Source: Paraburkholderia sp. BL10I2N1 (lineage in GTDB: Bacteria; Pseudomonadota; Gammaproteobacteria; Burkholderiales; Burkholderiaceae). Taken from it: a stretch of DNA of 64,000 nucleotides. Every line of letters begins with the position of its first letter. Position 1 is the first letter of the stretch. Under the pieces are notes generated by a model. The model made no database searches, was not told the DNA's origin, and saw only the letters and a list, made by a program, of their open reading frames with translations. A program made the position numbers and the translations under genes. This document shows, piece after piece, positions 20,033-41,623 of the stretch. The DNA lies in assembly GCF_004361815.1 (NCBI RefSeq), contig NZ_SNWA01000001.1, positions 2,790,001 through 2,854,000 of the forward strand, written 5' to 3'.

Positions 20033-20038
20033 GGGGAC

Positions 20039-20731: not shown

Positions 20732-20950
20732 TTACTTGTGCAGAATGCTTTGTGGCGGGATGCCATCGTCGACCGGCTGGCGGGCGGCTGGAAAGCCCGG
20801 CGGATAGTCGACCACGCGCGATGCGGCGGGAACCGGTTGCGCGATAACGCCGGCATGGGTGCCGATCCTTGCGCCGCCGATGATGGCGGTCATGGCCCTT
20901 CTGTCCAGGTCGACACTTTCGGCCAGGTCCTTGATCGCGATGGTTGCCAT
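20732..20950 (-). CDS. Double-glycine leader peptide 1 (candidate exported peptide)
   Basis: 72 residues with CAGGA 7 bases before the ATG. Residues 1-26 (MATIAIKDLAESVDLDRRAM then TAIIGG) match the leaders at 21394, 27588 and 40303: Asp8-Leu9, Leu15-Asp16, Met20, Ala22 and Gly25-Gly26 are invariant. The predicted mature 46 residues are Pro/Val-rich (GVIAQPVPAASRVVDYPPGF) with no Cys. They lack the S-x-x-[VF]-x-A-x-Q-x-N-x-T core of the other three. It lies 165 bases downstream of peptide gene 2 in the same direction, so it may share that promoter. The C39-ABC transporter at 34810 is the likely processing exporter (inference). Confidence 0.75.
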   Translation of the reverse strand: MATIAIKDLAESVDLDRRAMTAIIGGARIGTHAGVIAQPVPAASRVVDYPPGFPAARQPVDDGIPPQSILHK

Positions 20951-21115
20951 AGCTGTTCCTGAAGGTTGAGGTCAATAACCGGTACCGCTCGAAGGCAAGC
21001 TTGCCCGCCGGGCTGCAGATGGTCCGCTCAACCAGTATAGGAAATCCGCTTCCAGCGCGCAGCGAATTGCGATGCCGGCGGGTGAGAGCCGGTACGGTCT
21101 CGCGCGCCGCCTGTT

Positions 21116-21394
21116 CTATTTCATGATGATGTTGTTGTTGTTCTCCACCTTAGGGCTGATTGTCGTGTTGACATTGCTCAGGAAGGCCGAGTTGTCGCCG
21201 GTGGCGGCCTGGATTTCGAGCAGCGTGTTGTTCGACTGACTGGCCGCGACGTACTTGCTGAAGTCGAACGAGACAGGCGCATAGTTGAAGTAGCTGTACG
21301 ACGGGAAGGGCACCGAGCCGCCGCGCACCGCTGTCATCGCCGTGCTGTCGAGCTGTTCGGTGAGGGGCAGATCCTTGATCATCAGCGTGTTCAT
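21116..21394 (-). CDS. Double-glycine leader peptide 2 (candidate exported peptide)
   Basis: 92 residues starting MNTLMIKDLPLTEQLDSTAM, with GGAG 7 bases before the ATG. The 26-residue leader ends TAVRGG. The mature 66 residues are Ser/Asn-rich, Cys-free, and contain SKYVAASQSNNT and GDNSAFLSN, shared in position with peptide 3 (SKNVFATQSNGT, GSAFLTD). The end is NNNNIIMK. A sigma-54-type promoter and a dyad lie upstream. No RiPP-type modifying enzyme is adjacent and there are no Cys to modify. In-frame extension to 21649 is possible but has no conserved features. Confidence 0.8.
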   Translation of the reverse strand: MNTLMIKDLPLTEQLDSTAMTAVRGGSVPFPSYSYFNYAPVSFDFSKYVAASQSNNTLLEIQAATGDNSAFLSNVNTTISPKVENNNNIIMK

Positions 21395-21462
21395 TTCAGT
21401 CTCCGTGGAGGACATCAGGTCTTGCGGGTTTCGTGAATCATGTCTGTCCGGATGTCGTTGAT

Positions 21463-21478
21463 GCACAGGGCATGCCAG
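21463..21478 (-). promoter_or_regulatory. Sigma-54-type promoter of leader-peptide gene 2
   Basis: Minus strand TGGCATGCCCTGTGCA matches TGGCACRNNNNTTGCW at 14 of 16 positions, with the essential GG-N10-GC spacing. The -12 C is 70 bases before the ATG of the peptide gene. The sigma-54 activator at 37866 is the likely partner. Confidence 0.7.
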
Positions 21479-21598
21479 CCTTTTCGGTGTGCTGTTCTTA
21501 AAACGCGGGGATGCTGATACGTATAGGTTATGGGCGCAGTCGTGCCGCGTCGCGGCGACGCGTCTGGCAGGATCGCACGCCGCCGATGGTGGCTCGCA

Positions 21599-21625
21599 GC
21601 CAACAACCGGCCGCACCCTGTTGGC
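21599..21625. promoter_or_regulatory. Inverted repeat, candidate activator (UAS) site for peptide gene 2
   Basis: GCCAACA (21599-21605), 13 bases, TGTTGGC (21619-21625): a perfect 7-bp dyad centred 148 bp upstream of the -12 element. This is the normal distance for a sigma-54 enhancer. A related dyad with the same spacer and the same 148-bp distance precedes peptide gene 3. Confidence 0.55.
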
Positions 21626-21672
21626 CACCTTGCAACACCCGCCCTGCACATGCGCCGCGGGCCTATCCTGGT

Positions 21673-21701
21673 TTGCGAAAGGAGCAGGTGCGGGCTAGTA
21701 T
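21673..21701 (+). promoter_or_regulatory. Sigma-70-type promoter of the kinase gene
   Basis: TTGCGA (21673-21678), 17 bases, TAGTAT (21696-21701). It lies about 80 bases before the kinase ATG and inside the divergent region shared with peptide gene 2. Confidence 0.5.
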
Positions 21702-21782
21702 CGAAAAAGGGCACATGTAACTGGTTACGACAGCGATTCCCCCGGTTTTCCGGTCACCACGGAGCTGCTTTGCTTCGCACAA

Positions 21783-23930
21783 ATGGCTAGCCTTGCGCAT
21801 GTGATTCGCGATTTCCAGAATGGCGGGCTGTCGCGCGACGAATTCGTCGCGCAGCTCGACAGCACGCTGACGACAGAAGGTCTCAGTTCTGCACGCCTGC
21901 TGGAAATCCTTGGCGAGGCGCACACACGTATACCGTTGCCTTCCGACCTCTACGCGGAAGTGCGCCGCAGGATCGAGCAGCTACCGGTGTCGAATCTCGC
22001 GGCCGGCGGCGAGGAAACCCGCGTGCTGACGGCGACTGAACACATGCCTTCGCTGACTTCCGGCATCGCTGCGCCGCCGCCCGGACTGGATCAGATCAAG
22101 GGCACCGGCGACACACTGAACAATCGTTTCGTGCTGGAAGAATGCCTGGGTGTCGGCGGGATGGGCACCGTCTACAAGGCGCTCGACCTGCGCAAGCTGG
22201 AAGCATCTGACCGCAAGCCTTACCTGGCGATCAAGGTCCTCAATGTGCAGTTCCGTGGCAACCCGAAATCGCTGATCGCGCTGCAACGCGAAGCGAGGAA
22301 GGCGCAGGTGCTCGCGCACCGGAACATCGTCACCGTGTACGACTTCGATCGCGACGGCGCGATCGTCTACCTGACGATGGAATATCTGTCGGGCAAGCCG
22401 TTGAGCCAGATCCTGCGCAGCGAGGACTTCAAGGGCATGCCGCTACGCGCCGCGCAGCCGATCGTACGCGGCATGTGTGGCGCGCTCGCCTACGCGCATG
22501 AGCGCGGCTTCGTGCACTGCGACTTCAAGCCTGCCAACGTGTTTCTCACCGATACGGGCGAAGTCAAGGTGATCGATTTCGGCATTGCGCGCGTCTTCCA
22601 GCGGCCGGAAGAGGAGAGCGACGCGACGGTATTCGACCCGGGCAGTCTCGGCGCGTTGACCCCCGCTTATGCCAGTCCGGAGATGCTGGAGCATCGCGAA
22701 CCCGACCCACGTGACGACATCTACGCGCTGGGTTGCATCACCTATGAACTGCTGACCGGGCGGCATCCGTTCGACCGGCAGTCCGCCACCCAGGCGCGCG
22801 CCACGGGCCGCGTGCCGGAGCGGCCGGAAGGACTCGGCACGCGTCAGTGGCGGGCACTGCGCTCGGCACTGTCGTTCGACCGCAATACCCGCATGCCAAC
22901 GGTTGCGCGTTTTCTCGAAGAATTCTGCGCGGAGGAGCGCCCGGCGAAAAAGACGGCGCCGCGTGTGAAGCGCGGCGCGCTCGTGAAGGCGGGCGTGGCA
23001 GGGATCGCCGTGCTGTGTGCGGCGGGTGTAGGCGTGTATGTGCATCATCGGGCGGCGCCGGGCGAAAATGGCGCGACGGCTCCGTCGTCGATGGCGTCGG
23101 GCACGTCCGTTCCTGCTTCCGATGTTCAGGGCGCGTCCGCTGCGCCCGAGACACTTACAGCGTCGGCCCCGGCATCAGCCGCACCTGGCGTCGAGGCGGC
23201 AACGCCAGCAACGCCGTCCGCGCCGCCGGCCGTCCAGCCGCCCGCGCCGCCGCCGCTGTCGCTGGCGGCCGTTACGCCGCTACTGGCGCAGGTGCCGTGT
23301 TCGGCACTGGTGGCCGATGTGCAGGGTCACGCATTGAAGGTGCGAGGATTCGTTGCGCAGCGATACGGTGCGACGCGTCTGAAGAATGACCTCAGCGCAC
23401 TGCCCGGTGTCGAGTCACTGAACCTTGACGTCGAGCAGATCGCCGACGACAAGTGCGACGCGATCAAAACGTTCGCACCGTACTGGACACACAACTGGCA
23501 GGCCGGCCGCGTCGCCGCGCTGCATGTGCGGCCGCCCGATGCGCAATTGACCGCAGGCGATCCGCTCGTTGTCGACGTGACGACGCCCGGCTTCGATTCC
23601 TACGTCAATCTCGACTACTACGTGCTGGACGGCAGCGTCGTGCATATGGTGCCGGGCCCGCGGGCGAAGGACAACCAGGCTCCGCCGCACTATGCCGCGA
23701 CGATCGGCAGCGCGGGCGACTGGACCATCTCGAAGCCGTTCGGAACGGAGATGGTCGTGCTGCTCATCACGCCCGTGCCGCTCTTCGACAGTCTGCGGCC
23801 CGAGAGCGAGTCGCGTGCCGACTATCTGCATGCGCTCGAAACGCGCCTTGGTCAGATCGCCAGCAAGTATGGGCAGGACCGCATCGTTGCCGATATTGCG
23901 CTGATCACGACGAAGGCGCGCACGCATTGA
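21783..23930 (+). CDS. Membrane Ser/Thr protein kinase (Hanks/PknB type) with periplasmic DUF4384-like region
   Basis: 715 residues. The N-terminal ~110 residues are helical and uncharacterised. The kinase domain (~114-385) has the Gly loop LGVGGMGTVYKALD, lysine in YLAIKVLN, catalytic HCDFKPANV (Cys for the usual Arg of HRD) and VIDFGIARVF. One membrane helix (~402; AGVAGIAVLCAAGVGVYVHH) is followed by an Ala/Pro/Ser-rich linker and a periplasmic domain with LTAGDPLVVDVTTPGFDSYV and VNLDYYVLDGSVVHM. The Cys in the HRD position suggests an RD-independent enzyme. It probably phosphorylates targets recognised by the FHA protein at 29856; the PP2C at 39243 is the natural counterpart. Confidence 0.92.
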   Translation: MASLAHVIRDFQNGGLSRDEFVAQLDSTLTTEGLSSARLLEILGEAHTRIPLPSDLYAEVRRRIEQLPVSNLAAGGEETRVLTATEHMPSLTSGIAAPPPGLDQIKGTGDTLNNRFVLEECLGVGGMGTVYKALDLRKLEASDRKPYLAIKVLNVQFRGNPKSLIALQREARKAQVLAHRNIVTVYDFDRDGAIVYLTMEYLSGKPLSQILRSEDFKGMPLRAAQPIVRGMCGALAYAHERGFVHCDFKPANVFLTDTGEVKVIDFGIARVFQRPEEESDATVFDPGSLGALTPAYASPEMLEHREPDPRDDIYALGCITYELLTGRHPFDRQSATQARATGRVPERPEGLGTRQWRALRSALSFDRNTRMPTVARFLEEFCAEERPAKKTAPRVKRGALVKAGVAGIAVLCAAGVGVYVHHRAAPGENGATAPSSMASGTSVPASDVQGASAAPETLTASAPASAAPGVEAATPATPSAPPAVQPPAPPPLSLAAVTPLLAQVPCSALVADVQGHALKVRGFVAQRYGATRLKNDLSALPGVESLNLDVEQIADDKCDAIKTFAPYWTHNWQAGRVAALHVRPPDAQLTAGDPLVVDVTTPGFDSYVNLDYYVLDGSVVHMVPGPRAKDNQAPPHYAATIGSAGDWTISKPFGTEMVVLLITPVPLFDSLRPESESRADYLHALETRLGQIASKYGQDRIVADIALITTKARTH

Positions 23931-23983
23931 GCGTCGGGCGCCGTCGTCCGGCACCTCAGGCGCGTGATGACGCAGACGGGCTT

Positions 23984-25921
23984 TCACGTCAGATCCCTGA
24001 CGACCCTGAAGCCGTTCTGCGACTGGCGCACGGTGGCGCTGTACTTGAAGCGCGTCGAGGTGAGCATGTAGTTCGCGCCTTCGCGCCACGAACCGCCACG
24101 GATCACGCGCATGTCGCAGCCTGGGATGTCCCACGTGCGGCCGTCGGCAGGGGCGTTCTGGTACGAGTTGTGCCAGCAATCGCTGACCCATTCCCATACG
24201 CCGCCGTTCATACCGTACAGGCCCCAGGGATTCGGCGCGAATGCGTCGACATTTTCCGGGCCTTCGGTGTGCCAGGGGTCGCCGCAATCCTTGCAGTTCG
24301 CGCTGCCCTTGCGCATCTGGTCGCCCCACCAGTATTTCGTCGTCGTGCCGCCTTTGTCCGCATACTCCCATTCCGCCTCGGTGGGTAGGCGGTAGGGCTT
24401 GCCGGTGACCTTGACCAGCCACTTGACGTACTGCTGCGCGTCGTCCCAGCTCAGATCGCGGGCGGGTGCATTTCTCGTCGTACTGTTCTCGCTGGAAAGC
24501 CGCGCGCAGGCTTTCGCATCCACGCAGGCGTCCCATTGTTCGACCGTCACCGGGTACTTGCCGATCGCGAAGGGCGCGCCGATCGTGACGCGATGCACCG
24601 GTTTTTCTGACGGGTCATCGGTGCTGCTGCCCATCATGAAAGAGCCCGCAGGCAATGCCACCATCACGGGGCAGGCCGCGCAGTCCTTGCTTTCGCTCGT
24701 GCCGGAGGCGTTGTTCACCGCTTTAGACTGAGGCGACGGGGGAGCAACCGGCGCCGGTGCTGCCGCAGACGGGGCCGGAGCGGGCGCCGGCGCAGGCGTA
24801 ATCGCCCGTGGATGCTCCTGTGGCGGCGCGCCGGCAGATGCCGCTTGAGGCGCTTGCGTTGTAGTGGCTGGCGTTTGCGGCGCGAACGCTCGCAGCCGTT
24901 CGATGCGCGCGCGCGCAAGCGGCGCGAAACGGCCGTTCGGATAGGCCTTCAGATAGGCCTCGTAGTCACTCGGATAGGTGCTGTTCTTGATCGAGTCCCA
25001 GAACGTGATCTCGTATTGCTCGCTGCTGTCCTTCGGCAGTATCCCGCGACTATGCAGCGTGACGACCGCTTCGTCCGTGCCGTTCGATCGGGCGTCGGCG
25101 AGTAAGGCCGCATCCACCCGGCCGGAACCAGGCAGTGCGTCGTCTGAAAGCGATGACGCAACCCAGGGCCTCTGTTCGCCGTGCGTGACTTCGCGAACGT
25201 CAGCCGCGACACGCCGCAGCATGGTCGCGAGGTCGGCCGACGGCGCTGCTGCGAGCGTACGCAGCAGCGCACCCGTGTATACCCCATGACGCTTGCCATC
25301 TGCGGCAGATCCGCCCGGAGCAGCAGCGTAGGCAATCATCGTCCGGTCAGGGAGTGCGGCGGGGAACGGCGTCGCATCGGCGGCCTGGAACGGGTCGTTC
25401 AGGCACGTATCGAGTATCACCAGATTGAGCTTGTCAGGACGTGGCGCCGACATCGCGCGAAGCACGCTCGACAGTCCCATGCCGCTCTCCAGAAGAAGCG
25501 CGGGCGAACCCACATCGACGCCTGCCGGGACGAGCACCGCGTCGTTGGCCGCCTTGAAGCCGTGCCCACCGAAGTAGAAGACGCTTGTGCCGCCCGCGCG
25601 CAGGCGCCGGCCGAAATCGGCGAGCGCCTGTTTCATCTGCTGCGGCGTTGCGTTCGTGCGGAGGATCACGTCGAAGCCAAGCGCGCCGAGCGTGTCGCTC
25701 ATGCTGCGGGCGTCGCGCGCCGCGTTAGGGAGCGCGCCGGCCGGATAGTCGTCGTTGCCGATCACGAGCGCGACGCGCGGGTTGTCCGCGTGAGCGGACG
25801 GCGCTGTGACCCGGGCAGTCGCAGCCACGGTTCGGGGGGCTGGCTGTGCCTCGACGCCGAGCCACGGTGCGAGGATTGCCCCGGCCATGCACACGAGCAG
25901 GAGTTTTCGCCACATATTCAA
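23984..25921 (-). CDS. Secreted caspase-like (C14) and formylglycine-generating-type (SUMF1) two-domain protein
   Basis: 645 residues. Signal peptide ([20 protein letters not shown]). The caspase-like domain (~45-270) starts [20 protein letters not shown], with catalytic His in VFYFGGHGF and Cys in [13 protein letters not shown] middle region carries a [20 protein letters not shown] block and a Pro/Ala linker. The C-terminal SUMF1 domain (~415-645) shows [53 protein letters not shown] and [11 protein letters not shown] oxidises Cys or, in relatives, modifies other substrates. No exported peptide here has a Cys, so FGE-type action on them is unlikely. It converges on the kinase gene (53-base gap). 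Confidence 0.9.
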
Positions 25922-26202
25922 ATCCTGTTTTGGTATGGATCGAACATCGGTATCCGTCGACGGGCAATTCGCTGTCGGTCACTGCCATGCGCGCGGCGAA
26001 TCTCCGCGCAATCTGCATGCAGCGCCTCGAGGTCGTCATCAACAACGATAGCACGCAGTCAAGGCGTCAGAACGAGAACGAGAGTGGCGTATCTTTTTGG
26101 CAAGTTCCGTCCTAAGCTAAAGCACAAAGAACACAGCACTGATCGGGGTCTTTTACCGGTCGTTCCGACACGCACGTGTGCACACACCCGCCGCGAAGGT
26201 GT

Positions 26203-26258: not shown

Positions 26259-26762
26259 ATGCAAAGAAGAACAATGCGCTGCAGGCTGGCCGCTCGCGTG
26301 AGTCCTGCTGGCACCACGGTAGTTGCCACTGTAGTCACCACGTTCATTGTCGCGGTTCTCGCCTCCCTGGTATGGGGTACGGCGCTGGCGGCCCCGCCAA
26401 GAACCCCGTCTCCGCCGAACGCGGAGGAATACATCATCTGGCCGGCCGACGGCACGGTGATCCATGGCGGCAAGCTGTGGGTGCGCATGGGGCTTCGCAA
26501 CATGGGCGTCTGCCCTAAAGGCGTCGACTCCCCGAAAACCGGGCACCACCACCTGCTGATCGACACCGATCTGCCGCCGCTCGATCAGGAAATTCCATCG
26601 GATCGCAATCACCTGCATTTCGGCGCAGGCGAGACGGACGCGCGCATCGAACTGCCGCCTGGCAAGCACACGCTGCAGCTTTTGCTGGGCGACCAGAACC
26701 ACGTGCCGCACGATCCACCGGTGTATTCGAAGAAGATCACCATCATCGTCAAAGCCAATTGA
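26259..26762 (+). CDS. DUF4399 protein A, exported
   Basis: 167 residues from MQRRTMRCRLAARVS with a strong GGGAGAAGG ribosome site. A long signal/membrane segment (VVATVVTTFIVAVLASLVWG, ending ALAAPPRT) is followed by the DUF4399 domain: EEYIIWPADGTVIHGGKLWV, then TGHHHLLIDTDLPPLDQEIP and DRNHLHFGAGETDARIELPP. The clustered His residues suggest metal binding. The domain's function is unknown. It overlaps the frame of the next gene by 4 bases if that gene starts early, and is 35 bases from its preferred start. Divergent from the caspase/FGE gene. Confidence 0.85.
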   Translation: MQRRTMRCRLAARVSPAGTTVVATVVTTFIVAVLASLVWGTALAAPPRTPSPPNAEEYIIWPADGTVIHGGKLWVRMGLRNMGVCPKGVDSPKTGHHHLLIDTDLPPLDQEIPSDRNHLHFGAGETDARIELPPGKHTLQLLLGDQNHVPHDPPVYSKKITIIVKAN

Positions 26763-26797: not shown

Positions 26798-27223
26798 ATG
26801 CACAAGATTATCGTCGCCGCGGCGCTTGCCGCTCTGGCTTTCCTGAACTTCGCCTATGCGGGCACCACGCCGTCGCCCCCCGGCGCATATGCGTATATCG
26901 GCTATCCCAACGATGGCCAGGTCGTTCCCGCCAACAAGCCGTTTCGCGTATGGTTCGGGCTGCGCTACATGGGTGTCGCGCCCAAGGGCGTGAAGTTTCC
27001 AAATACCGGACACCACCATCTGCTGATCGACACCGACCTGCCGCCGATGGACCAGGAAATTCCCTCGGACCGCAACCATCTGCATTTCGGCGCGGGCGAA
27101 ACGGAAACGATGATCGAACTGCCGCCCGGCAAGCACACGCTGCAGTTGTTGATGGGTGACGACAAGCACATCCCGCACAACCCGCCGGTCTATTCGAAGA
27201 AGATCACCGTCATCGCGAAGTGA
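26798..27223 (+). CDS. DUF4399 protein B, exported
   Basis: 141 residues from MHKIIVAAALAALAFLNFAYAG, with GGGGAG before the ATG. The mature part is closely similar to DUF4399 protein A from TGHHHLLIDTDLPPMDQEIP to VYSKKIT, so the pair is a tandem duplication. It begins with a Sec signal peptide and is probably periplasmic. The job within the peptide-export locus is unknown; a role as a periplasmic partner of the secretion channel is only a guess. Confidence 0.87.
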   Translation: MHKIIVAAALAALAFLNFAYAGTTPSPPGAYAYIGYPNDGQVVPANKPFRVWFGLRYMGVAPKGVKFPNTGHHHLLIDTDLPPMDQEIPSDRNHLHFGAGETETMIELPPGKHTLQLLMGDDKHIPHNPPVYSKKITVIAK

Positions 27224-27351: not shown

Positions 27352-27380
27352 GCCCAACACCCTCGTGCGCGCTGTCTGGC
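27352..27380. promoter_or_regulatory. Imperfect inverted repeat, candidate activator (UAS) site for peptide gene 3
   Basis: GCCCAACA (27352-27359), 13 bases, TGTCTGGC (27373-27380). It has the same half-site and the same spacer as the perfect dyad before peptide gene 2 and is also centred 148 bp upstream of the -12 element. Two positions break the symmetry. Confidence 0.5.
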
Positions 27381-27499: not shown

Positions 27500-27515
27500 T
27501 GGCACAGGCCATGCG
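27500..27515 (+). promoter_or_regulatory. Sigma-54-type promoter of leader-peptide gene 3
   Basis: TGGCACAGGCCATGCG: 14 of 16 consensus positions with GG-N10-GC. The -12 C is 74 bases before the ATG at 27588. Apart from this site and the dyad at 27352-27380, the 364-base region 27224-27587 shows nothing else I recognise. Confidence 0.72.
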
Positions 27516-27587: not shown

Positions 27588-27863
27588 ATGAACACCCTGA
27601 CGATCCAAGACCTCCACGTGACCGAAGAACTCGACATCGCCAGGATGCGCGCCGTACGCGGCGGCCTCATGCCGATCCCGTCGAACAACTTCGTGAACAT
27701 CACGCCGATCAGTCTCGACACCAGCAAGAACGTCTTCGCCACGCAGTCCAACGGCACCGGCATCGACATGCTGATTTCCACCGGCACCGGCTCGGCGTTC
27801 CTGACCGACATCTACACGAAGTCGAATCCGTACGTGGATAACGGCAACAGCATCGCGCTTTAA
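27588..27863 (+). CDS. Double-glycine leader peptide 3 (candidate exported peptide)
   Basis: 91 residues with an AGGAGAACCGGG ribosome site. The leader (MNTLTIQDLHVTEELDIARM then RAVRGG) is exactly 26 residues, like the other three. The mature part (65 residues) contains PIPSNNF, PISLDTSKNVFATQSNGT and GTGSAFLTD, and is clearly homologous to peptide 2. It is rich in Asn, Ser and Thr and has no Cys. It sits between the DUF4399 pair and the secretion operon. A stable hairpin follows 75 bases downstream. Confidence 0.82.
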   Translation: MNTLTIQDLHVTEELDIARMRAVRGGLMPIPSNNFVNITPISLDTSKNVFATQSNGTGIDMLISTGTGSAFLTDIYTKSNPYVDNGNSIAL

Positions 27864-29711: not shown

Positions 29712-29739
29712 TTGACTACCGCCATGTGTGACTTACAAT
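29712..29739 (+). promoter_or_regulatory. Sigma-70-type promoter of the FHA/secretion operon
   Basis: TTGACT (29712-29717), 16 bases, TACAAT (29734-29739): close to consensus at both boxes. It would give a leader of about 110 bases before the ATG at 29856. The machinery thus looks constitutive, unlike the sigma-54-driven cargo genes. Confidence 0.65.
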
Positions 29740-34809: not shown

Positions 34810-37800
34810 ATGGACGCACCCCAGACATCTCCGTCCGCGGCGGAGTTTCTGTCATCGGTCGAGATCCTGTCGCCATTTTCGCGCGAGGAACTCGAACGCA
34901 TGGCGGAGCATGCGCAAAGCCGCTTCTACTCATTCGGCGAGACGGTGTGCAATGCGGGCGAGCCGGCGGAAGGACTCTTTATCGTCAAGTCGGGCTCGGT
35001 GCGCATCTTTACCGAGGAGCACGGCAAGGAAATCAGCATGGGCGTGCGCAAGACGGGCGAGATCTTTGCCGATATCGCGATGCTGCGCACCTATGTGCAT
35101 GAATCGTCGGTGCGGGCCTCGGCAAAAACCGAACTGCTGTTCATACCGCGCGCAGCGATCGGACCGGTGATTGGCGGCAACCAGGTCGCACTAGCGTTCG
35201 TCGCGAGCTATGTGGCGATCAGTTCCGCGGGCGGGTTCGTTGCGCAACTGTTCGATCTGCGCGGCAAGCTCAACAAGGCCGAGCTGGAAGAATACGTGCG
35301 CAGCGTCGGCGTGAAGCGGGTCAGCGCGGGCAAGGAAATCCTCAAGCAGGATTCGCGTGAAGACCGACGGCTCTACGTCGTGCGGCAGGGCGAAGTGCGG
35401 ATCGTGCGGCGCGACGACGACAAGGACTACACGCTCGCGACCCTGGGCGAAGGTGAGATCTTCGGCGAGAAGGCCTGCCTGATGCGCCAGGAGCAGATGG
35501 CTTCGGTCATCGCGACTGCCGACACGCGGCTGCTCGTGATCCCTGAGCGAACCGTCCATTTCATCCTGGAGCGCAATCCGAAACTTCGCGAAGTGCTCGA
35601 AGAACGGATTCGCTATTCCGACCGCGAACTCGAACGCCAGAAGCGGATCGAGCAGCGGCGCAAGCTGCCGTTGACGCTCGACCTTCACACGAAGCCCGAG
35701 TTCGGCGAGAAGGTCATCAAGCGGTTTGCGTTCGTCGAGCAGGCCGAGGAGATGGATTGCGGCGCGGCCTGTCTCGCGATGGTGTGCAGGCACTACAGCA
35801 TCCCCATGACGCTCGGCAAACTGCGCGAACTTGCCAACGTGACGACACAGGGCGCGACGCTCGACAGCCTCGCGCGCGCCGGAGAGTCGCTCGGCTTTAC
35901 GGCGCGCGGCGTGCAATGCACGTTCGATGCGCTACGCGGCTTCGATCTGCCGTTCATCGTGCACTGGGAGGGCTATCACTACATCGTGGTGTATGGCCTG
36001 TCGAAAGACTATGTGTGGGTGGCCGACCCGGCGCTCGGCTTCAGAAAACTGAGTGTCGAGGATTTCGAGCGCGGCTGGAGCGGCACCTGTCTGATCTTCA
36101 CGGCGGGGCCGAATCTCGCGCAGATGGCGGCGGCGCGCTCGCCGTGGATACGCTTTGTCGGTTACCTCACGCCCTACAGGAAGATCCTCGCGAACCTGTT
36201 TCTTGCGACCTTCGTGATTCAGGTGCTGGGCGTGATTCCGCCGCTCATCATCCAGAACATCCTCGATGGCGTGATCGTGCATCAGAATGTCAGCCTGCTG
36301 CATCTGTTGATCGTGGGGCTGATCATCTCCAACGTATTCACGCAGCTGATGTCGACCATTCGCGCCTATCTGGCGAATTTCATGGTTCGCAACATGGACT
36401 TCGCGATGATGTCGCAGTTTTTCAAACACACGATGTCGCTGCCGTTCTCATTCTTCGCGAAGCGCAAGACCGGCGATATCTTTGCGCGCTTCCAGGAAAA
36501 CCAGACGATCCGCGCGTTCCTGACCGAATCGACCGTCACGACCGCGTTGAACCTGCTGATGGTGTTCATCTACTTCTCGATCATGTTCTTCTATAACGTG
36601 AAGATGACACTGGTGCTGATCGCCTTCGTGATTCCGATCATGGCGCTCACTGCGCTTGCCACGCCAAAGCTCAAGTCATACGCGCGTTCCGTGTTCGCCG
36701 CCTCGACCGATTCCAAATCTTTCCTGATGGAAGCGCTGGCCGGTGTCGAGACGGTCAAGGGCATGGGCATCGAGCGTCCGGTGCGCCTGCGCTGGGAGAA
36801 GAAGTACGCGAAAGCGCTGGAATTGCAGTACCGGGCGCACGCATTCAACATTCTGGTCGGACTCGGCAGCCAGCTGCTCAACGCCGCAACGACCATCGCG
36901 ATCCTCTGGGTGGGCGCGAATCTGGTGCTGGCGCGCGAGATGACGATCGGCCAGCTGATTGCCTTCAATGCGTTCATGGGCAGCGTGCTGAGTCCGCTGA
37001 TGGGGTTGGTGGGCCTGTGGAGCATGTTGAACGACGCAGGCGTCGCGATGGAAAGACTTGGCGACGTCCTCGACATCGAGCCCGAACAGAAGCCGGAAGA
37101 TCTGCCCTCGCGGGTGATGCTGCCGGACCTGCAGGGCGAAATCAGCATGAGCGGCGTGTATTTCCGTTACGGGGAGAACGACAGCGCCTATGTGCTCGAG
37201 AACATCAGCTTCGATATCAAGCCGGGTGAGCTGGTGGCGATTGTCGGCCGCAGCGGCTCGGGCAAGACGACGCTCGCCAAGCTGCTGGTCGGATTCTATG
37301 CGCCGTCCGAAGGCAAGATGACGGTCGACGGCTACGACATGAATGTGATCGACAAGGCCTACTACCGCGCGCAGATCGGCTACGTGATGCAGAGCAATCT
37401 GCTGTTCTCCGGCACGATCGCCGAGAACATCGCGAGCGGCGACGATGCGCCCGAGCGTCGCCGCATCGAAGAGGTCGCGAAGATGGCCGACGCGCATGCG
37501 TTCATCAGCAAGATGCCGCTCGGCTACGAACAGATTGTCGGCGAGCGCGGCATCGGGCTGTCGGGCGGCCAGATTCAGCGCCTGTGCATCGCGCGGGCGC
37601 TCTATCACGATCCGCGTCTGCTGGTGTTCGACGAGGCCACCTCGGCGCTCGATTCGCAGTCGGAAAGCAATATTCTCGGCAACATGCACGACATCCTCAA
37701 GGGCCGTACTGCGGTGATCATCGCGCACCGGCTCAGCACCATCATGCGTGCCGACAAGATCCTCGTGCTTTACGAGGGCGCAATCGTCGAACAGGGGCGG

Positions 37801-37866
37801 CACGAAGAACTGGTGGAGAGGAAGGGCATGTACTACCAGCTTGTCCAGAAACAGTTGAGCGCCTGA
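34810..37866 (+). CDS. C39-peptidase ABC exporter with two N-terminal cyclic-nucleotide-binding domains
   Basis: About 1018 residues from MDAPQTSPSAAEFL; a GTG at 34753 would add 19 residues. Two cNMP-binding folds (~15-130 and ~165-280; SGSVRIFTEEHGKE, QGEVRIVRRDDDK and GEGEIFGEKACL) precede the peptidase. The C39 domain (~310-445) has catalytic Cys in AEEMDCGAACLAMVCRHY, His in HYIVVYGLSKDYV and Asp in VADPALG. Six membrane helices follow, then the nucleotide-binding domain: GRSGSGKTTLAKLLVG, GIGLSGGQIQRLCIARALYH and LLVFDEATSALD. C39 domains cleave after Gly-Gly of leaders such as the four found here. The cNMP folds probably gate transport. Confidence 0.94.
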   Translation: MDAPQTSPSAAEFLSSVEILSPFSREELERMAEHAQSRFYSFGETVCNAGEPAEGLFIVKSGSVRIFTEEHGKEISMGVRKTGEIFADIAMLRTYVHESSVRASAKTELLFIPRAAIGPVIGGNQVALAFVASYVAISSAGGFVAQLFDLRGKLNKAELEEYVRSVGVKRVSAGKEILKQDSREDRRLYVVRQGEVRIVRRDDDKDYTLATLGEGEIFGEKACLMRQEQMASVIATADTRLLVIPERTVHFILERNPKLREVLEERIRYSDRELERQKRIEQRRKLPLTLDLHTKPEFGEKVIKRFAFVEQAEEMDCGAACLAMVCRHYSIPMTLGKLRELANVTTQGATLDSLARAGESLGFTARGVQCTFDALRGFDLPFIVHWEGYHYIVVYGLSKDYVWVADPALGFRKLSVEDFERGWSGTCLIFTAGPNLAQMAAARSPWIRFVGYLTPYRKILANLFLATFVIQVLGVIPPLIIQNILDGVIVHQNVSLLHLLIVGLIISNVFTQLMSTIRAYLANFMVRNMDFAMMSQFFKHTMSLPFSFFAKRKTGDIFARFQENQTIRAFLTESTVTTALNLLMVFIYFSIMFFYNVKMTLVLIAFVIPIMALTALATPKLKSYARSVFAASTDSKSFLMEALAGVETVKGMGIERPVRLRWEKKYAKALELQYRAHAFNILVGLGSQLLNAATTIAILWVGANLVLAREMTIGQLIAFNAFMGSVLSPLMGLVGLWSMLNDAGVAMERLGDVLDIEPEQKPEDLPSRVMLPDLQGEISMSGVYFRYGENDSAYVLENISFDIKPGELVAIVGRSGSGKTTLAKLLVGFYAPSEGKMTVDGYDMNVIDKAYYRAQIGYVMQSNLLFSGTIAENIASGDDAPERRRIEEVAKMADAHAFISKMPLGYEQIVGERGIGLSGGQIQRLCIARALYHDPRLLVFDEATSALDSQSESNILGNMHDILKGRTAVIIAHRLSTIMRADKILVLYEGAIVEQGRHEELVERKGMYYQLVQKQLSA

Positions 37867-39206
37867 TGAAGATACTCGACCAGACCGAAGAGGGGACGAG
37901 CCCCGCCATCTCATACGCAGGCTTGATCGAAAAGATCGAGATCCTGCGCTCGACGCTGCGCTGGTCGTCGAGACTCGAGCGCGCGGACATCGACAAGCTG
38001 CTTCGCCAGGCGAGTTCGCTGCGCGACGAGGTCATGCAGATGTCGCACCGCGAGCGCTTCGTGCAGGCGGTCGCGGAACCGGCGCGCGTCGATCAGTCGC
38101 GAGGGGCACGGCGCCAGGCACTGCTCGAACGCAGCTTCATCTTCGAAGGAACGTTCGGTGACAACCCCAAGCTGCTCGAAGCGCTCGAAATCGCCGAGAA
38201 AGCCGCGCCAACCGATCTGCCCGTGCTGATCGATGGCGAGAGCGGAACCGGCAAGGAACTGATGGCGAAGGTGATTCACGCGAACGGCAGCCGGGCCGAC
38301 AAGCCGTATATCTCGGTCAACTGCGGCGCGATTCCCGACAACCTGCTGGAGTCCGAACTGTTCGGCCACCGGCGCGGCGCGTTCACGGGGGCATCGAGCG
38401 ACCGCAAGGGCAAGTTCGAAAGCGCGCATACCGGCACGATCTTTCTCGACGAGATCGGCGAGTTGCCGCTGGCAGGCCAGGTGAAGCTCTTGCGCGTGCT
38501 CGAAGCGCACGAGATCCAGCGCGTGGGCTCGGACGAAACGATCGCCGTCGATACCCGCATCGTGGCCGCGACGAACCGCAATCTGCGTCGCCTGAGCGAG
38601 GAGGGGACGTTTCGCGAAGACCTGTTCTACCGGTTGAGCGTGATTCATGTGACGCTGCCGCCGCTGCGCGAGCGGCGCGACGAGATTCCGCTGCTGGTCG
38701 CCTACTTCGGCGACGAAGCGGCCGGCACGCTCAAGCGGCGGCCGGTCAGGCTGACGCCGAGGCTGCGCGATTTCATGCTGACCTACGCGTATCCTGGCAA
38801 CATCCGGGAGCTGCGCAACGTGATGTACCGCATCTCGTGTCTCGCGGGCGATACCGCTGATCTGGAACACTTGCCGGTGGATATGCGGCCGGTGCCGGTG
38901 AGCTCAGGTGTGCAGGGTAGCGTGGGTGGTGCAGGGGCAGGTGGCGCGAACGTATCGAACCTGCTGTCGCTCGCGGATGCCAAGCGGGCTGCCAGCGACG
39001 AGGCTGAAAAGGCGTTCCTCGAACGCGGGTTGCATGAGGTTGGCGGCACGGTGGCCGAACTGGCGAGACGGGTCGACATGAACCGGTCGCATCTGCAGAT
39101 GCTGTTGAAGAAGCACGGCCTGCATTCGAAGGATTTTCGCCATCAGGGCGAGAAGAAAAACGGCCAGGGGAAAGACGACAACGGCGAGGACGCCGAAGCT
39201 GGCTGA
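37866..39206 (+). CDS. Sigma-54-dependent activator without a recognised sensor domain
   Basis: 446 residues; the ATG overlaps the transporter's stop (TGATG). The N-terminal ~100 residues are charged and helical with no REC, GAF, PAS or FHA fold. The AAA+ domain (~100-330) has GESGTGKELMAKVIHANG, the sigma-54 contact motif RRGAFTGASSDRKG, and Walker B TIFLDEIGELPLAG. A C-terminal Fis-type helix-turn-helix reads GTVAELARRVDMNRSHLQML, followed by a Lys/Gly/Asp-rich tail. It is the only sigma-54 activator in the window, and sigma-54-type promoters precede the peptide genes, so those are its probable targets. Signal input may come through phosphorylation or FHA contact. Confidence 0.92.
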   Translation: MKILDQTEEGTSPAISYAGLIEKIEILRSTLRWSSRLERADIDKLLRQASSLRDEVMQMSHRERFVQAVAEPARVDQSRGARRQALLERSFIFEGTFGDNPKLLEALEIAEKAAPTDLPVLIDGESGTGKELMAKVIHANGSRADKPYISVNCGAIPDNLLESELFGHRRGAFTGASSDRKGKFESAHTGTIFLDEIGELPLAGQVKLLRVLEAHEIQRVGSDETIAVDTRIVAATNRNLRRLSEEGTFREDLFYRLSVIHVTLPPLRERRDEIPLLVAYFGDEAAGTLKRRPVRLTPRLRDFMLTYAYPGNIRELRNVMYRISCLAGDTADLEHLPVDMRPVPVSSGVQGSVGGAGAGGANVSNLLSLADAKRAASDEAEKAFLERGLHEVGGTVAELARRVDMNRSHLQMLLKKHGLHSKDFRHQGEKKNGQGKDDNGEDAEAG

Positions 39207-39242
39207 CCGCGCGGACCTGGCGTTGATGCGAATCTGCCGCGC

Positions 39243-40013
39243 TCAGGGTGCCGGATTCAGCAGGGTCTTGTCCGACGCGTGAGGATCTTCGGCCTGCACG
39301 ACCACCGCCGAGATATTGTCGCGGCCGCCGCGCGCCAGTGCGATGTCCACCAGTTCTCCGGACGCGCGGTGGCAATCCACGTTCGCCAGTGTGGTCAGGA
39401 TCTCGTCGTTGGTGACTTCGTTGCTGAGGCCGTCGCTGCACAGCAGGAAGACGTCGCCATCAGCGACTTCGATGGCGTCTTCGTCGAGGGTGAGCCGGTC
39501 GGTCGCACCGACTGCGCGCGTGATCATGTGCTGGGCCGGGTGGTGGCGCGCCTCTTCGTCGGTCAGACGTCCCTGTAGCCGGAGTTCCTCAACCTGGCTG
39601 TGATCGCGCGTCAACTGCCGCAATTGACCCTGCCGGTAAAGATAGAGGCGGCTGTCGCCCGCCCACAGATACCCGCAGAAGCGGTCGCAGGCAAGCAGCA
39701 CGACGACCGTGCTGCCGATCCGTTGCACCTGACGCCGCGCCGCTTCTTCTCTCAGCTGACGATTCGCGACCTGCAGGCGCGTGCGCGCGTCGGCGATGAA
39801 GCGCTTCATGCTGGCAGGCGGCGACATCTGGCTCAAGGTGTCGACCACGAGCCGGCTCGCGAGATCGCCGACGGCGTGGCCACCCATGCCGTCGGCGACG
39901 GCCCAGCGCCCTTTGTCCGGCTGGTCGAGGCAGGCGTCCTCGTTGATTTCGCGTACGCGCCCCACATCGGAACGCGCCGACGAAGCCCAGCGAAACTGGC
40001 TTGCGCAGATCAC
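39243..40013 (-). CDS. PP2C-family Ser/Thr protein phosphatase
   Basis: 256 residues starting at a GTG (40013), with the peptide-4 stop 8 bases upstream. All PP2C metal motifs are present: VGRVREINEDACLDQ, WAVADGMGGHAVGDLAS, DVFLLCSDGLSNEVT and RGGRDNISAVVVQAE. It is soluble and cytoplasmic, the small PrpC/Stp type. It is the natural antagonist of the kinase at 21783 and is in one transcription unit with leader-peptide gene 4. If that unit is sigma-54 driven, cargo induction would also raise phosphatase and give negative feedback. Confidence 0.93.
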   Translation of the reverse strand: MICASQFRWASSARSDVGRVREINEDACLDQPDKGRWAVADGMGGHAVGDLASRLVVDTLSQMSPPASMKRFIADARTRLQVANRQLREEAARRQVQRIGSTVVVLLACDRFCGYLWAGDSRLYLYRQGQLRQLTRDHSQVEELRLQGRLTDEEARHHPAQHMITRAVGATDRLTLDEDAIEVADGDVFLLCSDGLSNEVTNDEILTTLANVDCHRASGELVDIALARGGRDNISAVVVQAEDPHASDKTLLNPAP

Positions 40014-40018
40014 GGGAT

Positions 40019-40303
40019 CTACCCCGCAGTGTTGGTGTTGCGAGCGTCGGGAGAGGCGTTGATGGTCAGGTCCGAGCCGGTGTTGTGTACGTTCACGGAC
40101 TGGAACGTGTTGTTCATCTGGTTAGCATAGAAGCTGTTGGAGATCTCGTACAGGTTGACGACCGGTCCGACGGTCGGCGTTTCGCGCACGAACGGCTGGA
40201 TCCAGCCGTACACCCAGGGGGCCCCGCCGCCGCGGATGGCGGCCATCGCCTTGCGGTCCAGCGCGATGTTGAGCGAGAGGTCACTGACAGTGATGGAGGA
40301 CAT
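40019..40303 (-). CDS. Double-glycine leader peptide 4 (candidate exported peptide)
   Basis: 94 residues with CTGGAGACCC just before the ATG. The 26-residue leader (MSSITVSDLSLNIALDRKAM then AAIRGG) fits the family. The mature 68 residues start GAPWVYGWIQPF and contain SNSFYANQMNNT, matching the S-x-x-[VF]-x-A-x-Q-x-N-x-T core of peptides 2 and 3. The rest differs and is Asn/Thr-rich, ending NTNTAG. No Cys. The gene leads directly into the PP2C gene. An in-frame start at 40336 lacks a ribosome site and the leader signature. Confidence 0.8.
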   Translation of the reverse strand: MSSITVSDLSLNIALDRKAMAAIRGGGAPWVYGWIQPFVRETPTVGPVVNLYEISNSFYANQMNNTFQSVNVHNTGSDLTINASPDARNTNTAG

Positions 40304-40368
40304 GGCGGGTCTCCAGAGGTGGCCGCCGAATCGCACGGCCTTGGATCAAGAAAAGTTGAATGACATGG

Positions 40369-40384
40369 TGCAAGTGCCATGCCA
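40369..40384 (-). promoter_or_regulatory. Sigma-54-type promoter of leader-peptide gene 4 / phosphatase
   Basis: Minus strand TGGCATGGCACTTGCA: 15 of 16 consensus positions with GG-N10-GC. The -12 C is 67 bases before the ATG at 40303. Confidence 0.75.
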
Positions 40385-40493
40385 GTTTGACGCCGCGCCG
40401 GCACGCTACCCGTAACACCTTGATTGGCTGGCGATTTCCCGCGTGAGGCTGCATGCGGGCAGCGTCGCGTGACGGACAGGACGTTGGATGAAC

Positions 40494-40615
40494 GCCAACA
40501 GAGACGGCGGGAAAAGGTGGTCTGCCCAACACTTCTGCGATGCATTCGCGTCGCATTGATTCGTACCCGGTTGATGGGGACCTGCCAACAGTTCGAGGCA
40601 AAAAACTGTTGGGCA
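40494..40615. promoter_or_regulatory. Cluster of GCC(C)AACA half-sites, candidate activator region
   Basis: In the 473-base divergent region between peptide gene 4 and the LRAT gene: GCCAACA at 40494-40500, TGCCCAACA at 40522-40530, and an inverted repeat TGCCAACAGTT (40583-40593) / AACTGTTGGGCA (40604-40615). The same half-site builds the dyads upstream of peptide genes 2 and 3. The inverted repeat is centred about 105 bp from the LRAT -12 box and about 229 bp from that of peptide 4. Nothing else recognisable lies in this region. Confidence 0.45.
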
Positions 40616-40689
40616 TGCCCGTACACAACACTGCACCCTTCCTCGCCTCATTTAAGGAAAATTCATGTAAATCAATAGCTTGGATAACA

Positions 40690-40705
40690 TGGCCCGGTTG
40701 ATGCG
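40690..40705 (+). promoter_or_regulatory. Sigma-54-type promoter of the LRAT-like gene
   Basis: TGGCCCGGTTGATGCG: 13 of 16 positions with GG-N10-GC. The -12 C is 73 bases before the ATG at 40777, the same layout as the peptide genes. Confidence 0.5.
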
Positions 40706-40776
40706 GAAGACCTCGCAACAGTGTTGGTCAATCGATGCAAGCCACGCTTGCAAGAACGAGGAAACCGGGGCAAGCC

Positions 40777-41307
40777 ATGAACCACTACCAGCAGCAGGCG
40801 AGCATCGAAGGGCGGAGCGCAGACCGCGCTGTCGTGTCGACTTTACCTGACGTTCCGCTTGGCGACTTCGACGAACTGATGCCCGGTGCGCATCTCGTCA
40901 CGCAACGCAGTGGTTATGAACATCATGGCATCTACGCCGGCGGCGGCAAGGTCGTTCACTACTCAGGTTTTGCCTGCTCCGCGCATCGCGGCCCGGTTGA
41001 GGAAGTCTCGCTCACGCGCTTCGCCGCTGGCCATCCGGTTGTAGTCCGCCCGAACCCCTTCCCGAAGTACTCCAGCGACGAAGCCGTGCTGCGCGCGCGC
41101 TCCAGGCTCGGCGAAAACCGCTATCGCCTGTTGACGAACAACTGCGAGCACTTCTGCGCATGGTGTCTGCTTGGCGAAAGCCATAGCGAACAGGTACGTA
41201 CCTGCCTCACGCATCCGCGCACAGGGCTGCACGCTCTTGTGTGCCTGTGCAAGGCGCTTGTCGAAACGGGTGTGAAGGGCGGCTACGGCGTCGCACAGCT
41301 TGCATGA
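40777..41307 (+). CDS. LRAT/NC-domain (NlpC/P60-like) protein
   Basis: 176 residues from MNHYQQQASIEG. The circularly permuted NlpC/P60 fold of the LRAT family is marked by GAHLVTQRSGYEHHGIYAGG with catalytic His, KVVHYSGF, and the Cys motif NNCEHFCAWCLLGES. Members act as acyltransferases, phospholipases or thiol hydrolases; bacterial substrates are mostly unknown. A C-terminal hydrophobic stretch (LHALVCLCKALVETG) may attach it to membrane. The promoter layout suggests it belongs to the peptide regulon, perhaps acting on a lipid or a peptide end (inference). Next gene follows after 67 bases. Confidence 0.82.
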   Translation: MNHYQQQASIEGRSADRAVVSTLPDVPLGDFDELMPGAHLVTQRSGYEHHGIYAGGGKVVHYSGFACSAHRGPVEEVSLTRFAAGHPVVVRPNPFPKYSSDEAVLRARSRLGENRYRLLTNNCEHFCAWCLLGESHSEQVRTCLTHPRTGLHALVCLCKALVETGVKGGYGVAQLA

Positions 41308-41374
41308 ATACTGTCGACGACCAAATGAACGGACGCGGCGAAGTCACCAGGAAACAGGACTGAAGGAGAACGAG

Positions 41375-41623
41375 ATGATCACCGCGGAAAAATCGTTGCA
41401 CTGGGCCGTCGACAAGTGGCTCGCCCCGACACCCGCGATGCCGGCGCGCGTCGCGCGTTGCTGCCGTACCGGTACGCACCGCCGGCGCTATGTGTGCATC
41501 GAGGCGTTGCGCCCGGGTGGCCTGCTGTCGATCTTCTTCTTCCGCCATGACGACGGTACATGGAACGTGTTTCCGCCCGCGGCTGAGCGGCCGGCGATGA
41601 ATGGCTACCGGCGGGCAGCGTGA
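41375..41623 (+). CDS. Small basic protein, unknown function
   Basis: 82 residues from MITAEKSLHWAVDKWLAP, with AAGGAGAACGAG before the ATG. It is basic, has a pair of Cys (ARCCRTGTHRRRYVCIEALR) and a beta-rich C-terminal half (GGLLSIFFFRHDDGTWNVFP). No signal peptide or helix. It follows the LRAT-like gene in the same direction and may be co-transcribed with it. I do not recognise the family. Confidence 0.6.
   Translation: MITAEKSLHWAVDKWLAPTPAMPARVARCCRTGTHRRRYVCIEALRPGGLLSIFFFRHDDGTWNVFPPAAERPAMNGYRRAA

Follow-up and report, generated by a model that had tools for sequence, protein, structure and literature searches.

A conserved Paraburkholderia locus resembling a kinase-, phosphatase- and FHA-equipped export system for double-glycine-leader peptides

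The 64-kb stretch of the Paraburkholderia sp. BL10I2N1 genome analysed here, called the window below, carries a block of about 17 genes that is present in most of the Paraburkholderia species examined (Table 1). Judged from its sequence, the block looks like a single machine that would always be built, that would deliver small secreted peptides on demand, and that has kinase, phosphatase and FHA parts of its own. Gene calls together with Pfam and NCBIfam scans recovered every gene family named in the original prediction at the place claimed for it, the Pfam scan covering 20 proteins within 17942-42595. An Rfam scan of positions 20000-42000 and a tRNA scan were empty, and the DUF4399 proteins gave no match in a PDB profile search. 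Among nine proteins submitted to PADLOC, the kinase, the caspase/FGE protein, the PP2C phosphatase and the sigma-54 activator were matched, which we read as generic domain matches, and the other five had no match. A literature search returned no account of this kinase-linked peptide export system; the main text of papers on RpoN and nitrogen in Paraburkholderia phymatum held nothing relevant, and that strain may lack the locus.

Table 1. Coordinates of genes and candidate regulatory elements of the locus (window positions)
Feature	Position	Strand	Basis
pepD, 72-aa GG-leader peptide; mature part of basic/Pro-rich family	20732..20950	-	gene call, leader pattern
pepA, 92-aa GG-leader peptide, A/B family	21116..21394	-	gene call, leader pattern
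pepA sigma-54-type -24/-12, TGGCATGCCCTGTGCA	21462..21477	-	promoter scan
pepA enhancer-like half sites: CCAACA 21619-21624, TGTTGG 21600-21605	21600..21624	-	motif scan
Ser/Thr kinase of Hanks type; single TM by eye; C-terminal part resembling DUF4384, below Pfam cut-off	21783..23930	+	family scans
Caspase (C14) + FGE/PvdO-like protein; signal peptide by eye	23984..25915	-	family scans
DUF4399 protein a	26298..26762	+	Pfam
DUF4399 protein b	26798..27223	+	Pfam
pepB enhancer-like half site CCAACA	27354..27359	+	motif scan
pepB sigma-54-type -24/-12, TGGCACAGGCCATGCG	27500..27515	+	promoter scan
pepB, 91-aa GG-leader peptide, A/B family	27588..27863	+	gene call, leader pattern
NodT-type outer-membrane factor	28142..29653	+	TIGR01845, 318.4 bits (cut-off 210.05)
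Machinery-operon sigma-70-type promoter, TTGACT-N16-TACAAT	29712..29739	+	24/24 genomes
Twin-FHA protein, one TM by eye	29856..32393	+	family and motif scans
HlyD-type periplasmic adaptor	32371..33744	+	family scans
Parvulin resembling TIGR04500	33960..34712	+	95.9 bits (cut-off 180)
ABC exporter: two N-terminal cNMP-like domains, C39 peptidase domain with Cys	34810..37866	+	family and motif scans
Sigma-54 activator, AAA+ with GAFTGA, no receiver domain found	37866..39206	+	family and motif scans
PP2C phosphatase	39243..40013	-	family and motif scans
pepC, 94-aa GG-leader peptide	40019..40303	-	gene call
pepC sigma-54-type -24/-12, TGGCATGGCACTTGCA	40369..40384	-	promoter scan
pepC enhancer-like TGTTGG half sites x3, at -116, -147, -206	40495..40590	-	motif scan
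LRAT-like protein (NCEHF); weak sigma-54-like site 5'	40777..41307	+	family and motif scans
g40, conserved 82-aa protein, no family assigned	41375..41623	+	family scan, neighbourhood comparison

The exporter is a C39 peptidase domain (PF03412) fused to ABC domains, with the motif DCGAACL or DCGAASL in 29 of 30 orthologues, and it is encoded beside an HlyD adaptor and an outer-membrane factor, the NodT gene lying directly 5' of the machinery operon. Its scores fall below the curated type I/NHLP cut-offs (TIGR01846, 621.7 against 725.55; TIGR03796, 557 against 853.3). The protein also carries two N-terminal cNMP-like domains, which the original prediction did not mention. Neither copy has the Arg that is usual in cNMP-binding domains, and they may not bind nucleotide. 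The parvulin had been called cytosolic, in agreement with the lack of a signal peptide by eye; its score is below the TIGR04500 cut-off and the first 88 model positions are unmatched, which leaves it outside that family as defined. The catalytic motifs of the system are mostly intact: the kinase retains HCD-KP-N and DFG, and GAFTGA was found in 26 of 29 activator orthologues. The caspase Cys motif was recovered by pattern in only 18 of 29 orthologues, a shortfall that stems partly from cut matches.

The promoters divide the locus in two. The sigma-70-type site proposed 5' of the machinery operon was found exactly as described, and it recurs in all 24 genomes compared, that of the window among them. 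Sigma-54-type sites had been proposed for the cargo genes, and this held for pepA, pepB and pepC; pepD has no site of its own and lies downstream of pepA in the same orientation, probably as the second gene of a pepA operon. Across the 24 genomes such a site precedes 34 of 34 A/B-type peptide genes, which is above chance because only 0.047 are expected per 250 nt, the 34 genes coming from related genomes and thus not being independent. It also precedes 17 of 18 C-type genes, the pepC of one genome (G007) having none. These counts cover the peptides caught by the leader pattern, which missed among others the pepB of G021, G032 and G008, and one A-type peptide of G016 was counted under family E by its automatic label. 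The site 5' of the LRAT gene is graded only as a probable sigma-54-like promoter, since its scan relied on a less strict pattern and on start sites projected from tblastn matches.

Further upstream, an enhancer-like repeat, TGTTGG-N7-CCAACA with a degenerate second half, occurs at mostly fixed positions 5' of the peptide promoters. In 52 regions of 220 nt (pepC of G007 excluded) 80 half sites were counted, or 1.54 per region against about 0.11 expected, the latter scaled from a background of 0.099 per 204 nt, and they lie mostly at -147/-128 or -147/-115. The composite pattern matched twice in the 9.2-Mb genome, both times 5' of peptide genes, and the reversed-pattern control also matched twice. 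The conserved -24/-12 elements at similar distance, the enhancer-like sites and the GAFTGA activator together point to a sigma-54-dependent regulon, and the conserved promoter split supports the idea of standing machinery with switched cargo.

Among 144 genomes of the genus, whose lists were compared by eye, the parvulin was found in 110, the twin-FHA protein in 111, the kinase in 110 and the peptides in 111. All four are present in 109 genomes and none in 33, counts that, given the shared ancestry of the genomes, do not stand for independent events, and the two mixed cases are fragmented assemblies. Kinase, FHA and peptide genes distributed independently of the transporter would have spoken against a single system; instead, the pattern is all-or-none in 142 of 144 genomes. 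A comparison of 22 neighbourhoods of at least 30 kb matched the kinase, caspase/FGE, DUF4399, NodT, FHA, HlyD, parvulin, ABC and activator genes in 22 of 22, and PP2C, pepC, LRAT and g40 in 21 of 22, and g40 belongs to the conserved unit; PP2C, pepC, LRAT and g40 are absent from the 32 kb of G019. The gene set is kept across ten right-hand flank contexts, its linkage surviving both differing flanks and internal rearrangement, and it is largely kept in Caballeronia, Trinickia and Noviherbaspirillum. Among laboratory strains, P. xenovorans LB400 has the locus on chromosome 2 (L174). Co-occurrence, linkage and promoter split thus all favour the original inference of one system. A sample of the order, in which parvulin and peptides occurred in the same 3 of 399 genomes, own included, had suggested a system confined to the genus, a view overturned by a named-genome collection and a class-wide search.

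That search revealed that a core of FHA protein, sigma-54 activator, parvulin, HlyD and cNMP-C39-ABC exporter recurs in other families of the same class. At four of these loci (L188-L191) the core is found at 34-36% ABC identity, with the activator gene first rather than last, and the distant FHA proteins, where scanned, have a single FHA domain rather than two. No kinase was seen in the stretches examined around the distant cores, which therefore places the kinase outside the older core. One core (L190) is adjoined by a PP2C match and another (L195, in G867) has an FGE protein about 10 kb away. Some adjoin genes of adhesin or biofilm type, encoding TpsB, an MBG-domain protein and a LapD-like protein. 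Two adjoin proteins resembling ATP-grasp peptide maturases, at 59.9 and 83 bits and thus far under the cut-offs of 475 and 350, and a third lies near a weak maturase match (E 0.003).

Taken together, we favour, at a probability of about 60%, the reading of the locus as one dedicated export system for double-glycine-leader peptides, gated by kinase and PP2C through the FHA protein and with sigma-54-switched cargo. The sequences directly document the gene content, the joint inheritance, the promoter layout and the mostly intact motifs; the pairing of activator and enhancers, the cleavage of leaders, the phospho-gating and the direction of control are inferred. The sigma-70 promoter would keep the FHA protein, HlyD, parvulin, C39-ABC exporter and activator standing, while the cargo operons pepA-(E)-D, pepB and pepC would be switched by sigma-54 and the co-encoded activator, bound to the TGTTGG-N7-CCAACA enhancers. 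Precursors would probably be held by the parvulin, and the C39 domain would cut off their leaders during export, the double-glycine leaders of the four peptides predicting both cleavage and export. The membrane kinase would act as envelope sensor, possibly by way of the secreted caspase/FGE protein; an FGE fold also occurs in TagR, a protein of the type VI pathway. A partner phosphorylated by the kinase would be bound by the twin-FHA protein and reset by PP2C, and this phospho-switch could gate the exporter, free the activator or do both, restricting cargo synthesis to times at which the channel can take it.

The closest working analogue of such a system is the PpkA-PppA-Fha pathway known from type VI secretion, whose mode of operation would here be set on a type I exporter. 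That pathway is described as threonine phosphorylation with a periplasmic activator (PMC10482370, PMC6082577), and the locus shares with it a membrane Ser/Thr kinase, a PP2C and an FHA protein encoded together with a secretion machine, as well as a periplasmic protein that might feed into the kinase. It differs in having a C39-ABC exporter as its machine, an apparently membrane-anchored FHA protein with two FHA domains and a sigma-54 activator within the operon, and none of the 20 proteins scanned within 17942-42595 matched a type VI family in Pfam. We suggest tentatively, with the odds somewhat against it, that a type VI-like checkpoint on a type I exporter, also gating sigma-54 cargo transcription through the co-encoded activator, serving new, nearly uncharged, Asn/Gln-rich and possibly self-assembling peptides, and built on an older core with other cargo elsewhere in the class, represents a kind of secretion control that has not been described before.

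The nature of the cargo admits other readings. A Cys-bearing C39 domain on an ABC exporter, an HlyD adaptor, an outer-membrane factor and double-glycine-leader peptides are features shared with PCAT/NHLP-type, ComA and class II microcin export, and the mature parts of the A and B peptides evolve fast (median dN/dS 0.75 and 0.67), as would suit a multi-peptide, class II microcin-like bacteriocin system for competition. The exporter differs from PCAT/NHLP proteins in its cNMP-like domains, its scores and its ties to FHA, activator, kinase and PP2C. The bacteriocin reading is nevertheless unlikely: pepC is strongly constrained (dN/dS 0.21), and family scans recognised no immunity-like gene, though short ORFs without an assigned family, such as g40, may still include one. 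By composition, the mature parts of the A, B, C and E peptides (1-4% K+R, 2-6% D+E, 0-0.2% Cys, 19-21% N+Q) carry almost no charge, are rich in Asn/Gln and poor in Cys, and in this differ from typical bacteriocins, and the best bacteriocin model among 28 peptides reached an E of 0.061, which is not significant. The same composition, with motifs such as GNNxAF and the adhesin-type genes beside some distant cores, makes it a real possibility, though short of an even chance, that the peptides are amyloid-like or coat-like surface subunits with a curli- or Fap-like role, secreted through type I export. Pseudomonas Fap subunits are described as Asn/Gln-rich and their secretion as requiring a C39 protease (PMC5557850). 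Fap differs in that its subunits are exported by Sec, its C39 protease is periplasmic and its pore is FapF. Moreover, scans of the 28 peptides gave no curlin-type, other known amyloid or otherwise meaningful family in Pfam (E up to 1) and none in NCBIfam, PDB profile searches returned chance matches only, AlphaFold models were uninformative (mean pLDDT 62.6 for pepA and 37.1 for pepC), and no internal repeats were recognised by eye. With low confidence, extracellular action as a surface or matrix peptide is the most likely role of the cargo.

Maturation and export of a graspetide-type RiPP would account for the TIGR04500-like parvulin; MirC, a member of that family, serves graspetide synthesis as a partner protein and is encoded in a cluster that also contains a C39-ABC exporter (PMC13097080), and the maturase-like proteins near three distant cores point the same way. 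No ATP-grasp enzyme was found among the 20 scanned proteins of the locus, however, the parvulin lacks the first part of the model, and the low Asp, Glu, Lys and Arg contents leave few of the usual crosslinking residues, which makes this reading quite improbable. Very unlikely, too, is a division in which exporter, activator, FHA protein and peptides form one system and kinase, PP2C and caspase/FGE a separate neighbouring module for envelope stress. The kinase was not seen in the stretches examined around the distant cores, and it can be unlinked from the transporter: kinase and pepA operon lie 736 kb away from it in G081 and at a separate locus in four Caballeronia-type genomes. Both parts are still kept within the same genome in these cases, though, and the kinase stays divergent from the pepA operon at the inspected loci, even after relocation. 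Within the genus the kinase is present in 109 of 110 genomes with parvulin and missing in 33 of 34 without, the lone exception (G144) being an assembly in fragments in which the FHA gene is present, and the PP2C match and FGE protein near distant cores also argue against a separate module.

If the reading as one dedicated export system is true, an unrecognised and elaborately controlled form of peptide secretion would exist in about three quarters of the genus genomes (111 of 144), many of them from plant and soil bacteria, and control of a secretion machine by kinase, phosphatase and FHA protein would not be special to type VI. The predicted regulon of peptides, enhancer and activator would then be clear and open to bench testing at once. 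In a 5.2-Mb relative (G008) the kinase, FHA and ABC genes are all broken, whereas HlyD, parvulin and activator still match at full length, and the decay therefore does not extend to all parts.

The genes of the locus are inherited as a set. Searches of 144 genus genomes, among them the window's own, gave the parvulin in 110 (E <= 1e-20), the twin-FHA protein in 111 (E <= 1e-15), the kinase in 110 (E <= 1e-90) and the double-glycine (GG) leader peptides in 111 (E <= 1e-6); on comparing the presence lists by eye, all four were present in 109 genomes and none in 33. The two mixed cases were G144, without parvulin, whose assembly is 86% complete and in 450 contigs, and G069, without kinase, in 770 contigs. 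The original prediction of a single system is thus supported, since these four parts are all-or-none in 142 of the 144 genomes and independent distribution was not seen; that kinase, PP2C and FHA protein tune the type I peptide export is a proposal. Kinase and parvulin share a contig in 104 of the 109 genomes having both, including G081, where they lie 736 kb apart, and stand on different contigs in five drafts. In an order-wide sample, the parvulin was found in 3 of 399 genomes and the peptides in the same three, own included. Five genomes (G064, G065, G133, G148 and G150) have paired peptide matches of equal or almost equal score about 2.1-2.3 kb apart, a pattern resembling tandem duplication of the pepA-pepE pair; in G108 there are two repeated pairs of this kind, far from each other.

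The linkage was also followed at gene level. Stretches from 23 relatives were fetched and the window proteins mapped onto them, which gave 22 neighbourhoods of at least 30 kb, window included. Kinase, caspase/FGE protein, DUF4399, NodT, FHA, HlyD, parvulin, ABC and activator were matched in all 22, some partly, and PP2C, pepC, LRAT and the gene g40 in 21, the exception being G019, whose fetched stretch has none of these four. The right flanks of the 22 genomes fall into 10 groups, so that the linkage is not merely shared chromosome order. Of the window's flanking genes FUSC, MarR, IclR and PvdQ, the stretches fetched from relatives, which include little left flank, gave only a partial match to FUSC (G021) and a weak one to IclR (26%, G017). 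In G016, G011 and G018, the kinase has been relocated together with pepA/E/D across the machinery, still within the locus. In the 5.2-Mb genome G008 (G008:C6, L076, L077), ABC, FHA and kinase are broken, and HlyD, parvulin and activator give full-length matches.

Named genomes were scanned with the peptide alignment, and the best 80 of 178 matches were kept, corresponding to 69 loci from Paraburkholderia, Caballeronia, Burkholderia sp., Trinickia, Noviherbaspirillum, Herbaspirillum and MAGs labelled Herminiimonas, Caballeronia, Rhodocyclaceae and Proteobacteria; besides peptide genes, 61 of these 69 contain one or more other genes of the system. Most of the system was seen in Noviherbaspirillum autotrophicum (L114, whose sequence ends before HlyD and FHA, LRAT being unmatched) and in a Rhodocyclaceae MAG (L147, ending after HlyD). 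Caballeronia concitans, C. grimmiae, Burkholderia sp. 8Y and Caballeronia sp. GAFFF1 retain both the machinery and the kinase with pepA/E/D at separate loci, which suggests three modules: kinase and pepA-E-D; caspase/FGE-DUF4399-pepB-NodT-FHA-HlyD-parvulin-ABC-activator; and PP2C-pepC-LRAT-g40.

Gene models and Pfam/NCBIfam scans placed every predicted family in the locus at the predicted coordinates and revealed two features that had been overlooked: two cNMP-like domains at the N-terminus of the C39-ABC protein, and a resemblance of the parvulin adjoining the ABC gene to TIGR04500 (95.9 bits, cut-off 180). The Arg expected in cNMP domains for nucleotide binding is absent from these cNMP-like domains, whose sequences are, for example, GEIFADIAMLRTYVHEASV and GEIFGEKACLMRQEQMAS. 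Signature motifs of kinase, PP2C, FHA, C39, ABC, activator and LRAT are kept in nearly all orthologues, and the pattern used for the caspase Cys motif matched 18 of 29, partly owing to cut matches. The window carries four GG-leader peptides; those of relatives were grouped as A/B, C, D or E, and no family E peptide was found in the window.

Coordinates of the window and of neighbouring or related features
Feature	Position	Observation
Window	G000:C1:2790001-2854000	inside the 9.2-Mb own genome
Large protein gene, 1382 aa	window 9437-13585	repeats around called start resemble trimeric autotransporter adhesin heads by eye; true start may lie further upstream
Efflux-type operon	window 15246-20512	directly adjoins locus; outer-membrane factor, HlyD, small membrane protein by eye; FUSC, MarR by Pfam/NCBIfam scan
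PvdQ-like acylase	window 42776-45151	adjoins locus; weak NCBIfam match
C39-domain protein	G000:C1:2381803	own genome, outside locus
C39-domain protein	G000:C1:2436811	own genome, outside locus
C39-domain protein	G000:C2:2994194	own genome, outside locus
Three clustered small proteins	L106:9844-11990 (G000:C1, ~1630843-1632989)	common leader MTSLMIKDLSLDKELSRKEMTAVSGG, similar to locus leader
Cys-containing GG-leader peptide, 58 aa	L109:10122+ (G099:C10)	different peptide, away from locus

The promoters divide as foreseen, in line with standing machinery and switched cargo. A sigma-70 site precedes the machinery operon, before FHA, in 24 of 24 genomes at -135 to -155 (-191 in G008), scoring 8.5-10.4 against a 99th percentile of 8.2 over 400 random windows, and none of the 24 has a sigma-54 site there. 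With a sigma-54 consensus and the genes found by leader pattern, a site within 250 nt was found at 34/34 A/B and 17/18 C genes, all 51 at -62 to -101, against a background of 0.047 per 250 nt. Family D (2/21) and family E (3/9, one such gene really being an A) share no fixed site. Among the other machinery genes, sigma-54 sites precede NodT in 1, parvulin in 3 and activator in 2 of 24 genomes. A probable sigma-54-like site stands before LRAT in 14 of 22 cases (0.07 expected).

Before the -24 element, half sites TGTTGG/CCAACA occur, the majority at -147 plus -128 in A and B and at -147 plus -115 in C; 80 were counted in 52 regions of 220 nt, about 0.11 being expected per region, and 49 regions hold at least one. 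Their contexts point to a dyad, TGTTGG-N7-CCAACA, whose second half is degenerate. This composite matches the own genome twice, once at pepA and once at pepC, and the reversed-pattern control likewise gives a count of 2; over 20 genomes there were 46 matches, of which 22 fall inside the locus, and the other 24 are close to the control total of 26. The sigma-54 site is also present at orphan peptide operons, and five of these, from Herbaspirillum, Noviherbaspirillum and one MAG, have TGTTGG at -127 to -129 (L111, L113, L120, L144, L150); in L110 and L112 the exact half site was not found.

Parvulin relatives were found in 6 of 368 class genomes other than own. The two closer ones (62% and 55%) keep activator, ABC (72%, 68%), parvulin, HlyD, FHA and NodT in one block, and each has one peptide gene with a sigma-54 site at -92/-93, without the exact half site. 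The other four (25-29%) hold activator, parvulin, HlyD (in L191 judged solely by resemblance of its ORF), full-length ABC (34-36%) and an FHA protein with one FHA domain in one block, the activator being first, versus last in the window locus. Both ABC proteins scanned (L188, L190) have two cNMP domains and C39. Outer-membrane factors adjoin three of these distant cores, a PP2C match adjoins L190, and an FGE protein lies about 10 kb from L195; no kinase was found in the stretches examined around them. A3-type peptides are present in the genomes of both closer relatives (E 2.2e-16 and 3.6e-6) and were not found in those of the four distant ones. Exporter, FHA protein and activator are thus a deep unit, with variable cargo and kinase. 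Beside the distant cores (L188-L191, L193-L195) lie ATP-grasp peptide maturase-like proteins, which score below the cut-offs, as well as TpsB (ShlB), a GNAT enzyme, an MBG-domain protein and a LapD-like EAL/GGDEF protein; this suggests that their cargo is different and that there is a connection with c-di-GMP.

As a mechanism, the standing machinery would await cargo whose genes sigma-54 switches with the help of the co-encoded activator. In Pfam this activator matched neither a receiver nor any other known sensor domain, consistent with control through a partner, for instance the FHA protein of the same operon. Kinase, PP2C and FHA protein would form a checkpoint from envelope to cytosol, and the caspase/FGE protein may be its input. 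TagR of the type VI pathway, for comparison, has an FGE fold. Reports on type VI secretion describe phosphorylation of Fha by PpkA, which starts assembly, its reversal by PppA, and a periplasmic protein as input (PMC10482370, PMC6082577). No description of the present system was found among the papers listed from an open-licence library. Each machinery protein family is known; what appears to be new is how they are put together, along with the enhancer-marked regulon and the peptide families.

The mature parts of A, B, C and E contain 19-21% N+Q, 1-4% K+R, 2-6% D+E and 0-0.2% Cys; the mature D part is Pro-rich and, at 14% K+R, basic. Median dN/dS, over pairs with dS 0.15-1.5, is 0.75 for A (104 pairs), 0.67 for B (183), 0.21 for C (145), 0.50 for D (145) and 0.42 for E (28). 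Judged by composition and dN/dS, the cargo looks unlike a cationic or Cys-rich bacteriocin. Neither structure prediction nor family searches gave information on the fold. The peptide profile has 713 database relatives; 120 were listed, and the names shown there are those of hypothetical or uncharacterized proteins, with 'PPE family' given as well for one. The small proteins of L106 have cores mutually alike and unlike the locus peptides, no other system gene was matched in the 20 kb around them, and they are possibly further cargo. The L109 peptide has a sigma-54 site (score 14.0) at -109.
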